NCBI GenBank assembly: GCA_001600175.1
Contig: BCJC01000005.1
Location: 1,902,471 to 1,966,470 of the forward strand
Reading direction: 5' to 3'
Source: Erythrobasidium yunnanense
Lineage: Eukaryota > Basidiomycota > Cystobasidiomycetes > Erythrobasidiales > Erythrobasidiaceae
DNA length: 64,000 bases
Every line of letters starts with the position of its first letter. Position 1 is the stretch's first letter. The position numbers were made by a program, and so were the translations under genes. Below the pieces are notes generated by a model. That model ran no database searches, was not told the origin of the DNA, and was given only the letters and a program-made list of their open reading frames with translations. Shown here one piece after another: positions 5,821 to 33,958 of the stretch.

Positions 5821-7248
5821 TCATGCGTTCTCGACGTTGCCGTTGAGAGGGACGCCAGTGGTAGTGATGGAAGTGCCATCCTGGAAGATGGTCTTGACAG
5901 TATAAGGACCGGCTCCGAGGCCAGATCTGCTCAGTAAACGAAGTCAGTCATCGGTCGCATCCTGGCATAAGCGAAGGAAGGGAACTCACTCGGCAAGGAA
6001 GTAGTTGTAGTCTTGTCGAAGTAGGGTCTTTCCTCCGATCTCGACAGACTTGATAGGTTTGCCAGCTCCGCGAACTTGGATACCAGCCCAGTACTGCGAA
6101 GAACCGCTCTTCCTGCATGATCACGGAGCATATGTCAGTATGATGAGTACAGAAACCAAGATAAAGAATGGCGCACCAGAAGAAACTGAGCTCGCCATTC
6201 TCGAGACCGACGGCCGTGCAGTCTACAAACTTCCATGAAATGGGTCCGACACCGGAGGTGCTGACGATCTTATCTAAGTTGAGAAACTATCTAAGTTATG
6301 TCGACTGGTCGCTGGATCAGGACCTACTGAAAGCGGCTGTGCTCAAATCGAGATTTCCTGCTGGGCACTGTAGTGCGAGAAAACTGTGATCAGGAACTAC
6401 CGATTGCGTATGATCCATAATTCTGCTTACCTCTGGGCTGCATGGAGGTAGATCGAGGAAAAAAATCGAAGGGATTAGTCTAGATGTGTTATTCGCCGCG
6501 CATGACGATCTCGACGTACCACTGTACGGAGAGGGAAAAGTCAGTATCGATCACAGAAGGGTTACGCACTGAAGGCTTACCTTGTTTGTGATCTGGACGT
6601 TGACTGTGCCCCTATCGCCCTTGACTTGCAGACAAGCGCCTATCAAGGCGAATCAGCCAAATGAAACCGGAGCGATCGAATATGGCTGACTTACCACAGT
6701 ACTCTGACGACTTCCATTGCGCACCGGGCCATGCTACGAACATCTGCATGGCCAAAGCGTCAGGTCTCGATCTCGTATGAACGGGCGACTTATACGCAAC
6801 CTACCAAGTCTGATCTGGCTGGCAGCTTGCAGTTACCGCCAGTGCCATCATTTCCGTAGACTAGGTAGGCAATGTCAGCGATGTCTTACTCTTCGCGAGG
6901 ATATAGCTTACAAGTGGCAGTTCCGGATGTAGGGCCAGTGTAGGTAGTCGTGATACCTGAAGGCACAGCTGAAGTTGGTGCAGCCGCAGCTGATGACCTG
7001 GTGCTGGAAGTCGGCGCCCTTGAGCTGGATGCAGCTTTGCTGCTGGATTTCGGCGAGGGTACGACGACAGCGGCATTTCCAACGGTTCTGTATACGGTCG
7101 CAAGTACGGTTTTGGTCACTGTCGATGGTTTAAGCGTTGAGCACGCTCGCTTCTCGTGGACGAAACCTTGATGAGCAGCACCACCGCTGCCGAGAGCGAG
7201 AGCTGAAGAAGCTACGCAGAGAGATGCGGCGATGAGGGAGAAGCGCAT
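5821..7248 (-). CDS. expansin-like secreted protein A (DPBB plus CBM63-like domain)
   Basis: Ten exons in transcript order: 7248-6912, 6860-6805, 6743-6695, 6639-6581, 6521-6520, 6437-6431, 6367-6328, 6273-6177, 6112-5990, 5926-5821; 291 aa. Signal peptide MRFSLIAASLCVASSALA, a Ser/Ala/Thr linker to about residue 105, then a double-psi beta-barrel (FYGNDGTGGNCKLP, FVAWPGAQWKSSEYCGACLQ, VQITNKCPECPAGNLDL) and a C-terminal expansin domain (ISWKFVDCTAVGLENGELSF, QYWAGIQVRGAGKPIKSVEI). Expansins loosen polysaccharide walls without hydrolysis; fungal members act on plant or own cell walls. Exons of 2 and 7 nt encode the join across CPEC. Skipping both also keeps frame but deletes three conserved residues and leaves a 213-nt intron. 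A tandem paralogue lies upstream in transcription at 7881-8722. Confidence 0.88.
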
Positions 7249-7880: not shown

Positions 7881-8722
7881 TCAGCCCTGACCCATCTGAT
7901 GGTTGAGCGCGACCTCGGAGACAGGCGAGACACTGCCATCGTGATAAGTGACGCGAACCTGGAATGGACCTGGCCCAAGGTCTGCAAGCGAAACGTGAGA
8001 CTGAAATACTCAAGAATACTGTTTCTACGCCTACCTCTCTGTTCAAAGTAGTTGTAGTCTTGACGAACAAGCGCAATCCAATCTTGCGAACCAGGCTTCT
8101 GGACTTCCAATGATCTGACAGGCAGGGCAGCTCCTCGGACTTGAAGACTGGCCCACGTAGGACCAGTGCCGGTCTTCCAGTAGTATTCCAGATTACCAGA
8201 CTCCAAGCCTGCATCTTTGCAGTCGACAAACATGAATGAGACTTGACCTTCGCCTGATACGTGACCATCTTTAGATGAGCCTGTAAGGATGGAATCGAAA
8301 GCTTTGTCGGAGAAATCGAGATCGCCAGGTCGACCTTCGGGGTACTTGTTGGTAATCTGAACATAGGTAGACCCCTTGTCGCCAGTCACGCGGAGACAGG
8401 CTCCTGCGCACGGCAGACCTGATTAGCTGGGCTCCTAGTAGTCCACCTAGACTGATGACCCTCACCGCAGTATAGAGCCGACTCCCAAGCTGCTCCAGGC
8501 CAAGCGACGTACATCTGCATGACTATGCTCAGCTCACTGCCCTGACATGCAGTCGTTTCCGCAACTCACCATGTCGGCTCGAGGCGCCAGCATGCAAGTA
8601 CCACCCGTGGCGTCCATTCCATACGGAGTGCCTTTACCAGATACAGGTCCCAGATACGCTGTTTCAATAGCTGATTGTCTAATAGCCAGAGCGGCGTGTG
8701 CATAAGCGAGTGGGAGACGCAT
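7881..8722 (-). CDS. expansin-like protein B (tandem paralogue of A)
   Basis: Exons 8722-8570, 8514-8466, 8403-8035, 7981-7881; 223 aa. It aligns with gene A throughout: TPYGMDATGGTCMLAPRAD, MYVAWPGAAWESALYCGACL, VQITNKYPEGRPGDLDF, VSFMFVDCKDAGLESGNLEY, TWASLQVRGAALPVRSLEV, RQDYNYF. It lacks gene A's long linker, and both cysteines of CPEC are replaced (YPEG), so one disulfide is probably lost. Exon 2 is 49 nt with the same phase as exon 3 of gene A, while the region split into six exons in A is continuous here. The N-terminus (MRLPLAYAHAALAI) is a weak signal peptide; an upstream exon cannot be excluded. Probably secreted, wall-binding; activity uncertain. Confidence 0.85.
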
Positions 8723-11810: not shown

Positions 11811-14757
11811 ATGGGCCATCTAATCACGGTTTCTACTTGCAGGTACATCCAAGGAAGACCTTATGCTGCATGCCTTAATGCGATCTTAATGCCTTGAATG
11901 CTCGACAGTCTGAATCAATGGTCCCTCGACTTTGACGGCAATCTCCAGCGGATCCTAGAGAGCATTCGCATCGCAAAAGAACGCGGATCAAAGCTGCGCG
12001 TTGGGCCAGAACTTGAGATAACGTATGTCTGTCGATGAGATTACCCTATCCGGGCTGACCGGTCACTTCGTGTCGCATCACCTGCAGCGGATATGGCTGC
12101 ATGGATCACTTCCTTGAGGGTACGCGGAAAGCTCGTTTGCGAGGCGCGTAGCTGACGATGTACCTCAGGCGATACGGTTCTCCATTCATGGGAGGTACTC
12201 GCGCAGATCTTGGCAAATCCAGAGACGTATGGCATAGTATGCGATATAGGAATGCCTATCAATCACAAGAATGTCATCTACAATTGCCGGGTTATCATTT
12301 TTGACGGGAAGATCCTCCTTATCCGACCTAAGATGTGGCTCGCAAACGATGGAAACTACCGCGAGCTGCGCTTCTTCACACCTTGGACAAAGCATAGACA
12401 GACGGAAGAGTACTTCTTGCCCCGCATGATCAAAGAGATGACTGGACAGACGACAGTGCCATTCGGAGATGCGGTCATATCGACATACGATACTTGTATA
12501 GGTATCGAACTTTGCGAAGAGCTATTCACACCTAATAGGTACGACTTCCCTGCACCGAGTAATATACAATCGCTGACGTGCGCACAGTCCGCATATCTTG
12601 ATGGGGTTAGACGGTGTCGAAATATTTACCAATTCTAGCGGAAGTCATCACGAGCTGCGAAAGCTTCATAAGCGAATAGAGCTGATTAAAGAGGCCACGC
12701 AAAAGGTTAGTCAGAAATCCGAAGCAGCATGCTAGCCGCTGACAAGTACGCATAGTCTGGCGGTATCTATCTGTACGCGAATCAACAAGGCTGTGACGGC
12801 GACCGCCTATACTACGACGGCTGCGCGCTCATCGCCGTGAACGGCGATATCGTAGCACAAGGCTCCCAGTTCTCCTTGAACGATGTAGAAGTCGTCACAG
12901 CTACAATCGACCTTGAAGATGTCCGTAGCCATCGATCAAGGAGTAGCAGATCCTTCCAAGCGGCTGTCAGCGAAAGCTATCCAAGATTTAGGGTTGAGAC
13001 GGCTTTGAGTACGGGCAAGCCTGATGACTTGGTCGAGCTGGAAGTCAGCAAGAAGCAGGAGCCTAGGTACCATCAAGCAGAAGAAGAGATTGCGTCAGTA
13101 CTGCTCTTCCTCTTGAACGTTCACTCATGCTGATATATGGGTAATCTAGCCTCGGTCCTGCATGCTGGATGTGGGATTACCTGCGTCGCTGCCGTGCTCA
13201 AGGATACTTTGTACCCCTCAGCGGCGGTATTGACAGCTGTGCGACTGCAGTCATCACATACTCGATGTGTGTCCAAGTGTGCAAAGCTGCAGCAGAAGGC
13301 AGTAAGCAACACCTCATCCAAGGCGAAAAGCTGTAATGCTGAGTTGCAGACTAGATCAGCAAGTTATAGCCGACGCCAGGCGGATGACGGGCGAACCTGA
13401 AGACTCTGACTATATACCCGAAGACCCGAAGGAATTCTGCAGCAGGATCTTCCATACTTGCTATATGGGCACCGAGAACTCCTCCGCTGAAACAAGGAAG
13501 AGGGCCAAAGATCTTGCGAAAGCTATTGGAGCGTGAGCACTATCCTCGTCTCATCCGCGGCTTTCTCGTACTGATTGTGCTCGCCGCCTTCATGCAGCTA
13601 TCATACCGAGTGAGCAGTCTACATTGATCTCACGCTTCTTGCCAAGCTGATTAGCTTGCCAGCCTGAACATGGACGCAGTAGTCACGTCGATACGAGATC
13701 TTTTCGCTTTCGTGACAAGCAGGAAACCAATCTTCAAGGTACATGGCGGAACTTCCGCCGAGAATCTAGCCCTCCAGAATATCCAAGCTCGACTTCGCAT
13801 GTTGCTAGCCTACTTCTTCGCACAGCTATTACCTTGGGTACGAGGCAAGACTGGAGCCCTGCTGGTCCTTGGAAGCGCGAATGTGGATGAGAGGTATACT
13901 TTGTGGTTTTCTGAGAAGAGCAATGAAGCTGATATTCGATATAGTCTGAGGGGCTACCTTACAAAGTACGACTGCAGCTCAGCTGATATCAATCCCATCG
14001 GATCAATTAGCAAGACCGACTTGAAACGCTTCATTGCATATGCAGAGACAGCTCTTGACCTGCCTATACTCCAAGAGTAAGTGACATGTTCTCCAACCGC
14101 AAAAGACTGCTTGCTCACCCTTTTCCGTATACAGCTTCCTGGATGCCACACCTACAGCGGAGTTGGAGCCGATTACGGCAGACTATGTCCAAGCCGACGA
14201 AGCAGATATGGGCATGACGTACGAAGAGCTGTCCATTTTTGGTCGACTGAGGAAGAACGATAAATGCGGGCCTTATTCAATGTTCACGAAGCTTGTCGCC
14301 GAATGGGGTACTGCTTTGAGTCCGCTTCAAGTTGGTATATTCCAATCGCTAGCAGTATGGACGATTGACAGACATGGGCACTGCAGATCGCGGAGAAAGT
14401 CAAGCTCTTCTTTTTCGAATATGCTAGGAATCGGCACAAGATGACCACGCTCACGCCGTCGTATCACGCAGTAAGTTGGGGCTTGTAATTCGAGGGAACG
14501 AACACTGAAAGTGACATTGTTTGCAGGAGGCATACAGTCCTGATGACAACAGTATGCGGACCATTAATACCTATGACACGTTCACTAAACTGAGTAATCG
14601 CAGGATTCGACCTCCGTCCCTTCTTGTATCCTTCTCGCTTCCCTTGGCAGTTCCGGAAGATGTGAGCCTTGCCCTCTATTCAATCCAAACTCTTGTTCTG
14701 ACGATGATCTTCTTCACGTACAGCGATGAGCGAGCTGCGAATAGTCAGCACAGATGA
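11811..14757 (+). CDS. QNS1: glutamine-dependent NAD(+) synthetase
   Basis: Sixteen exons: 11811-11842, 11909-12022, 12088-12119, 12169-12538, 12588-12705, 12756-13092, 13149-13301, 13355-13532, 13598-13609, 13663-13893, 13945-14076, 14135-14330, 14387-14470, 14527-14551, 14604-14661, 14724-14757; 701 aa, close to the yeast enzyme. It makes NAD from deamido-NAD, ATP and glutamine. N-terminal nitrilase-type glutaminase: Glu in [12 protein letters not shown], Lys in [14 protein letters not shown], Cys in [12 protein letters not shown]-terminal synthetase: ATP-loop [10 protein letters not shown], then [26 protein letters not shown] and FPWQFRK near the end. Exon 9 is 12 nt. Cytosolic or nuclear housekeeping enzyme. 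Confidence 0.96.
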
Positions 14758-32655: not shown

Positions 32656-33958
32656 TTAGCGATTCTTCTTCATCAAAATGTCCGCTTGGGAATTACCTAC
32701 CCTCGGTAGAAGCTGCAACAACCACCATATAGTGGAATATGGTCCAAAGCACATATATCTCGGCGGCGATCTTGCCGTAATCGCTCTCACGACTTTATCC
32801 GCAAAGACATCGAGGTCCATAGCTGTCCGTACCGCAAAACTAATCAACCACACCGCAGCATTAGTTAAATCGTTGCAAAGCAGCTCACGGTCATTTTCAG
32901 GCTTGAACGGATCAGATGCTCTTTTCTGAAGATGCCTCTTAAAGGAATCTACATGCGCGTAGACGCTACCTGGCCGAGGTGTCCAGGTCAAACCACTCTC
33001 GCCGGGTACGTTGAGGTGTGTCCCAATGACGCCTGGTTCTATGAGCATGATATGGACCCCGAGTGAATGCAATTCGTGCTGTAGACTCTCAGACCAGGAG
33101 CGCGTTGCGGCTTTCGATGCTGCGTAGCTTGATAGGCCGGGCTGAAACCTGGCTTGTGAGTCAAGCACGGGAGCCTGAAGATAAAGACTAACCTGACCGA
33201 GCCCTGACAACGCAGACCCGATGTTCACTATCATACCGGTCTCACACTTGATCATCGATGGAAGGACGGCGCGAGCTACTCTGGCCATGCCTAGCAGATT
33301 TGTTTGTATGACGAGCTCAAAGTCCTCGATCGGAGCATCTGCAAAGGGGTCCAGCTTGAGAATGCCTAAAGAGCATATCAGTAAAGTCATTCCCTAGCCT
33401 GGATCAAGCGGGGATGGATTTACCAGCATTGTTCACTCTGGCAGAAGCAGATCGTTAGAAGTGAGAAACGAAGCAGTCATAGACGCGCACAGAATGTCGA
33501 TATGGCCTCCTGTAGCTTCCAAGATTTCGTCAATTCCAGACTTGACCGACTTGTTGTCGAGGACGTCCATCTTGATGATAGTGCATCCTAGATCTACTGA
33601 CAGCCTATGAGCTACTTTGAAGAAGCCGCGAGGAAGTTATGGATGATGCACCAGACAGGTCGCCCGTCTTTTCGGGGCTTCTTGCAGTCGCGTAGACGTG
33701 AAGCCCGACCTGACGTAGTCATCTGTTAGAGCTGGCAGTTGTGAGGTGTGCCGTAACTGACTTTGGAGAAATGTTTCGCGAGCTTTGGACACCACGTGCA
33801 TGTACGACATGAGCTGTCATTGTCGCTTAAGAGCTGTCATCAAGCCAACGCACTGCGTAGCCTATCCCGCCAGTGGAGCAGCCTGTCACAACTGCTATCT
33901 TGCGAGATTGCGACATACTGTAGCTTGGATCATCTAGAGAAGAGCTTCGTGATCTCAT
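32656..33958 (-). CDS. AYR1: short-chain dehydrogenase, AYR1-like (1-acyl-DHAP reductase type)
   Basis: Exons 33958-33854, 33782-33762, 33709-33657, 33604-33491, 33437-33424, 33365-33193, 33141-32656; 321 aa (307 if Met at 33916). Classical SDR: cofactor loop VVTGCSTGGIGYALAKHFSK, HVYATAR, KMDVLDNKS, VNNAG, VNIGSALSG, and catalytic Y-x3-K in SSYAASKAATRSWSE. HIMLIEPGVIGTHLN follows, then a C-terminal hydrophobic stretch (STIWWLLQLLPRV) that could anchor it to ER or lipid droplets like yeast Ayr1, which reduces 1-acyl-dihydroxyacetone phosphate with NADPH. Exons of 21 and 14 nt encode the Rossmann helix and NNAG. Confidence 0.85.

Follow-up and report, generated by a model that had tools for sequence, protein, structure and literature searches.

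Exons as small as 1 nt, although very rare, are known from plant genes, where those of Arabidopsis APC11 (PMC4674806) and of VPS55 (PMC8831610) were tested experimentally, and for APC11 Guo and Liu favoured intron definition, with the introns removed one after the other (PMC4674806). A 1-nt exon is also described for the Fusarium CYP621A P450 genes, documented by SRA reads and 20 orthologues (PMC12940212), and its introduction refers to 2-5 bp exons from Arabidopsis, Drosophila and humans. Comparison with cDNA revealed micro-exons of 5 and 6 bp in bglA of basidiomycetous yeasts (PMC9142197), and the shortest exon reported for the Phanerochaete P450 genes is 6 bp. No 2-nt exon in a basidiomycete was found in the literature searched, which omits most subscription journals.

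The gene considered here, expansin-like gene A, codes for a protein of the cell-wall-loosening type and belongs to an intron-rich, basidiomycete-like genome of 20.9 Mb in 10 contigs and lies in the window, that is, the whole stretch of 64 kb of DNA that was analysed, with a G+C content of 51%. The coordinates of gene A and of the other features are given in Table 1. The N-terminal part of the gene A protein has a signal-peptide-like start followed by a Ser/Thr/Ala-rich linker, after which comes the EXLX1 domain. The domain part scores 167.4 bits with the profile NF041144 expansin_EXLX1 (cut-off 100), which makes gene A a member of the EXLX1 family, and the top PDB matches are solved proteins named expansin or cellulose-binding protein. 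When the genome was searched in six frames, all strong matches belonged to gene A and the upstream paralogue B, the two further places found being weak (E 0.007 and 0.017).

Table 1. Positions of gene A, its paralogue, the exons and introns around the CPEC site, and micro-exons elsewhere in the genome (numbering of the window, except where contig C1 is named)
Feature	Positions	Strand	Description
Expansin-like gene A	5821..7248	-	10 exons, nine GT-AG introns, 291 aa, frame open to the stop
Paralogue B	7881..8722	-	Upstream of gene A; 4 exons, EXLX1-type, NF041144 144 bits
Exon 4	6581..6639	-	End reads ...QITNK
Intron 4	6522..6580	-	59 nt, gtaagc...tactgac...tacag; score 17.5, 97th percentile
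Exon 5	6520..6521	-	Predicted 2-nt micro-exon TG, bases 1-2 of the first Cys codon of CPEC
Intron 5	6438..6519	-	82 nt, gtacgt...gactaat...tgcag; score 11.0, 24th percentile
Exon 6	6431..6437	-	Predicted 7-nt micro-exon CCCAGAG, Cys base 3, then Pro and Glu
Intron 6	6368..6430	-	63 nt, gtaagc...cctgatc...tacag; score 15.5, 82nd percentile
Exon 7	6328..6367	-	Start reads CPAGNLDLSTAAF
Intron 7	6274-6327	-	Total score 8.1, lowest of the gene A introns and below the threshold used for training; weakest acceptor
12-nt exon CTATCATACCGA	13598-13609	+	Glutamine-dependent NAD synthetase gene; YHTD with its neighbours (AYHTD)
14-nt exon AGTGAACAATGCTG	33424-33437	-	Short-chain dehydrogenase (SDR) gene; VNNAG signature
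9-nt exon TGGAAGCTA	contig C1 3,033,700-3,033,708		SKN1/KRE6 gene; LEA of EIDILEA

The preliminary description of this DNA had placed 213 nt between the exon ending in ITNK at 6581 and the exon starting with CPAGNLDL at 6367, with two tiny segments in between, cag-TG-gtacgt at 6521-6520 and cag-CCCAGAG-gtaagc at 6437-6431, and three resulting introns of 59, 82 and 63 nt, and on the minus strand all of these positions and lengths were recovered. The site thus has the layout AACAAG/gtaagc..tacag/TG/gtacgt..tgcag/CCCAGAG/gtaagc..tacag/TGCCCAGCAGG. TG and CCCAGAG are each bounded by AG and GT and are within the size of ultra-small exons (at most 15 nt). With the nine bases TGCCCAGAG gene A would read VQITNKCPECPAGNLDLS, i.e. 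K-CPE-CPAG, and without them ITNKCPAG. A CPEC-type motif, meaning here the motif seen in the homologues and not a curated EXLX1 criterion, is present at the aligned site of gene A only when both micro-exons are joined. The K-CPE-CPAG product proposed from the first reading is supported as the only GT-AG solution found with the motif spacing of the homologues, and the equal spacing claimed for the paralogue agrees with the local reading NKYPEGRPG in paralogue B, where the site (NKYPEGRPGDLDF) lies in a single exon without interruption. The three introns had also been called typical of the window. Outside this site, 19 introns located by homology in five genes span 51-65 nt; introns 4 and 6, with 59 and 63 nt, fall in this range, but intron 5, with 82 nt, is longer than all 19.

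The nearest homologue is an expansin-like protein of Glaciozyma antarctica (58% identity, with 96% of the query region aligned), which at the site reads VQITNKCPECPAGSLDLS and contains ITNKCPECPAG. CPEC was present in six of the seven homologues found and CPTC in the remaining one. Of the three solved relatives shown, CPEC occurs in one, and the other two carry CHGC with identical spacing. Protein P0007, from a 930-base contig of the source 'lgn', which we take to be Logan, i.e. assembled SRA data, reads VQITNKCPECAEGSLDLS with ITNKCPEC unbroken at the site; it looks like unspliced DNA of a relative, since it runs through introns elsewhere. Paralogue B has YPEG in place of CPEC, both cysteines being gone together with the EXLX1 profile match retained, and this paired loss suggests that the two cysteines of CPEC work as a pair.

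Removal of the 213 nt as a single intron, with both micro-exons skipped and ITNK-CPAGNLDL as the protein, is the alternative to be weighed most closely. The outer donor and acceptor score well and the join is in frame, making a K-CPAG protein possible that still reaches 157.6 bits with the NCBIfam EXLX1 profile. Both forms are above the EXLX1 cut-off, which by itself does not decide the splicing. The shorter form is even slightly better with Pfam Barwin, where it is listed at 20.5 bits, below the cut-off, and the full form is unlisted. The profile scores otherwise fall when the nine bases are left out, by 9.8 bits for EXLX1 (from 167.4) and by 8.5 bits for Pfam DPBB_1 with the whole protein (from 28.5 to 20.0, both below the cut-off of 28.8), and the three residues that would be lost are missing in none of the seven homologues. 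Such an intron would moreover be more than three times as long as the 51-65 nt of the 19 introns placed by homology, and the CPE spelled by way of two internal units, each with its acceptor, branch point and donor, would have to be an accident. Skipping of both micro-exons as the ordinary splicing of gene A is accordingly rated as distinctly unlikely.

Splice sites were scored by a model of donor, branch and acceptor, trained without supervision on 264 kb with 162 introns (selection score >9), a rough set that must still contain false introns. Introns 4, 5 and 6 are all outside this set, intron 9 being the only one of gene A's nine introns inside it, and their scores are within the range of the genome's own introns, with intron 5 the longest and weakest of the three. 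The join at the acceptor of intron 7, the lowest-scoring intron of gene A, agrees with P0128, a stretch of 51 residues on a 7,907-base JGI contig in which the relative's exon has DKIVSTSGVGP and 30 of 33 residues are identical over gene A exon 8. P0128 would be DNA of a close relative, since the homology ends where introns 7 and 8 of gene A begin, and a scan of viral contigs gave no match for this relative.

When introns of at least 40 nt and at most two internal exons of at most 30 nt were allowed, the 213-nt gap held 14 GT-AG structures, four of them in frame and free of stops, and a single one of the 14 adds 9 nt, which encode CPE. A CPE insert arose in one of 20,000 dinucleotide-preserving shuffles, and C.E or CPD in 10. 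When the outer sites were allowed to move by as much as 30 nt, CPEC resulted in 4 of 1,053 structures, all with the identical two micro-exons. The prediction of a 2-nt and a 7-nt exon in gene A is supported by this sequence evidence. That the motif might instead be encoded through differently arranged exons or non-canonical splicing, with no 2-nt exon, is very improbable: one- or two-intron structures yielded CPEC in frame in none of 2,061 GT-AG and none of 6,310 GT/GC-AG cases, and the one structure that does so among 38,189 with non-canonical sites brings an inserted VSLQCVTLL, which is absent from the aligned homologues.

Skipping TG alone leads to a stop at codon 184 and skipping CCCAGAG alone to a stop at codon 176, and the frame is kept when both are skipped, so that the pair acts as a nine-base unit, each member being needed for the frame or the conserved motif. 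Such a frame-locked cassette could be regulated, with CPEC when both are in and no CPE when both are out, and the cell could then switch the motif and its cysteine on or off through the splicing of a 2-nt exon; we consider this use of the micro-exons unlikely. Decay of gene A to a state with no working product would be compatible with the other readings, and both motif cysteines are gone in paralogue B, so the family is changing here; in addition, neither the 291-residue protein nor a 91-residue piece, used as queries in two protein searches, retrieved a transcript of gene A or a spliced protein nearly identical to its product. Against decay, the frame of 291 codons is open across 10 exons and P0128 from the relative has 30 of 33 residues unchanged in the part encoded by exon 8, and we hold it to be very doubtful. 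Least credible of all is a complex intron, either a [D] stwintron or a recursive splice site, with TG as a splicing relic absent from the mRNA. In its favour, introns 4 and 5 are two bases apart and intron 4 splits the exon-side part of the intron 5 donor, similar to the way in which donors are split by the internal introns of [D] stwintrons. Without TG, however, the frame is lost with a stop at codon 184 and the motif requires TG, so that two bases are needed where a [D] stwintron keeps none between its introns, and TG stands between AG and GT where a recursive splice site, as a zero-length exon, has AG immediately followed by GT and keeps no base.

On the preferred reading, which is very probably correct, the product of gene A is an EXLX1-type expansin, and three introns, removed sequentially by intron definition, divide the sequence for its CPEC as AAG/TG/CCCAGAG/TGC. 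Introns of 51-65 nt are in the size range thought to be recognised as units, and each short intron here would be recognised by the spliceosome in this way, by intron definition, and removed in turn. The footprint of U1 extends over roughly three bases of the exon and six of the intron. On the donor of the 2-nt exon U1 would overlap U2AF at the acceptor AG of the same exon, and the two could hardly be bound together, so that introns 4 and 5 would have to be removed in succession. Three positions before the donor there is a G either way, contributed by the cag of the intron or by the neighbouring AAG of exon 4, and the donor context is therefore unchanged whichever intron goes first. The mature mRNA would then read AACAAG-TG-CCCAGAG-TGCCCAGCA, translated as K-C-P-E-C-P-A-G; both the inclusion of the nine bases in the mRNA and the sequential order of removal are what we infer. 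The remark in the preliminary description that a 2-nt exon is far below the limit of exon definition was fair in itself, but with short introns, intron-defined splicing needs no exon definition.

As to the origin of this arrangement, paralogue B and P0007 are without an intron at the motif, suggesting that CPEC was once encoded without a break and that the three introns were gained later. For the tiny exon of the Fusarium genes, Nelson and Syed proposed the capture of a cryptic exon following base loss (PMC12940212). In gene A, insertion of introns into existing code appears more likely than such a capture, because capture would need nine exact bases to be met by chance. In 5 pairs compared, introns 4-6 resembled one another or intron 1 no more closely than shuffles did, and a DNA search of the genome gave no second copy of the 213-nt stretch; nothing thus points to a repeated intron element.

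Micro-exons were also found in other genes of this genome (Table 1). The AYHTD of the NAD synthetase gene matches a solved NAD synthetase in register, and EID[IVL][LIVFM]E, the motif to which the 9-nt exon contributes, is present in 109 of the 120 listed SKN1/KRE6 relatives. Protein P0008, from a 1,328-base contig likewise of the source 'lgn', is identical in 218 of 219 residues to the joined SKN1/KRE6 model across four introns. The corresponding coding stretch takes about 1,556 genomic bases, more than the contig holds, and the contig is therefore spliced and includes the 9-nt exon. From this match it follows that genuine micro-exons are detected by the method in this genome, and that public data include RNA from this strain or one nearly identical to it. 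In a SKN1 tree of 26 rows the sequence of this genome stands beside P0008 and P0009 and does not group with any named species, and the genome is therefore described here as basidiomycete-like only.

A de novo scan of 264 kb, directed at exons of 1-12 nt flanked by good introns, which needs 60 coding bases on each side and is for that reason blind to the micro-exon pair of gene A, gave the 12-nt and the 9-nt exon as its two strongest matches. At a score of at least 11, 16 candidates were in frame and 19 were not, weakly above the chance expectation of one-third, in a count where one micro-exon may be included on both sides through different outer sites. Four joined candidates were compared with Pfam: the dehydrogenase one and an 8-nt one had weak matches below the cut-off and two were without a match. 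A 2-nt candidate in the SKN1 gene was rejected as a false positive, its supposed first intron being an exon that resembles a membrane helix, and splice-like sites alone thus prove little. A 1-nt candidate in the short-chain dehydrogenase gene was likewise discarded, the exon being in fact the 14-nt AGTGAACAATGCTG with VNNAG.

If confirmed, the 2-nt exon of gene A would rank with the smallest exons known and, within the literature searched, would be the first of this size reported for a basidiomycete. Two adjoining ultra-small exons in one motif would offer a clean test of how far intron definition alone can reach, and for intron-rich genomes of this kind they imply that motif residues will be lost from annotations made without a search for tiny exons.

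The predicted 2-nt exon of gene A is an extreme case of the ultra-small exons, a kind already published from 1 nt upwards. As described for Fusarium CYP621A (PMC12940212), the tiny exon is located within a conserved motif of a fungal gene and missed by annotation, and in both cases it was deduced from an intronless homologue and an intron of excessive length, more than twice the median in CYP621A. The CYP621A exon has 1 nt and is covered by reads, whereas the predicted exon of gene A has 2 nt, stands beside a 7-nt exon and is deduced from the sequence of one gene in a basidiomycete-like genome. The exons of APC11 and VPS55 (PMC4674806, PMC8831610) share with that of gene A a size too small for exon definition, but they are from plants and come with experiments. 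With the bglA genes, whose mean intron is about 60-80 bp, gene A has the richness in introns and the very small exons in common, the smallest bglA exon reported there being, unlike that of gene A, 5 bp (PMC9142197). The [D] stwintrons, as characterised in PMC7138796, resemble the locus in having introns so close that one interrupts the donor region of the other and in their consecutive removal; in these the interrupted element belongs to the external intron, whereas in gene A the two bases would be kept as an exon.
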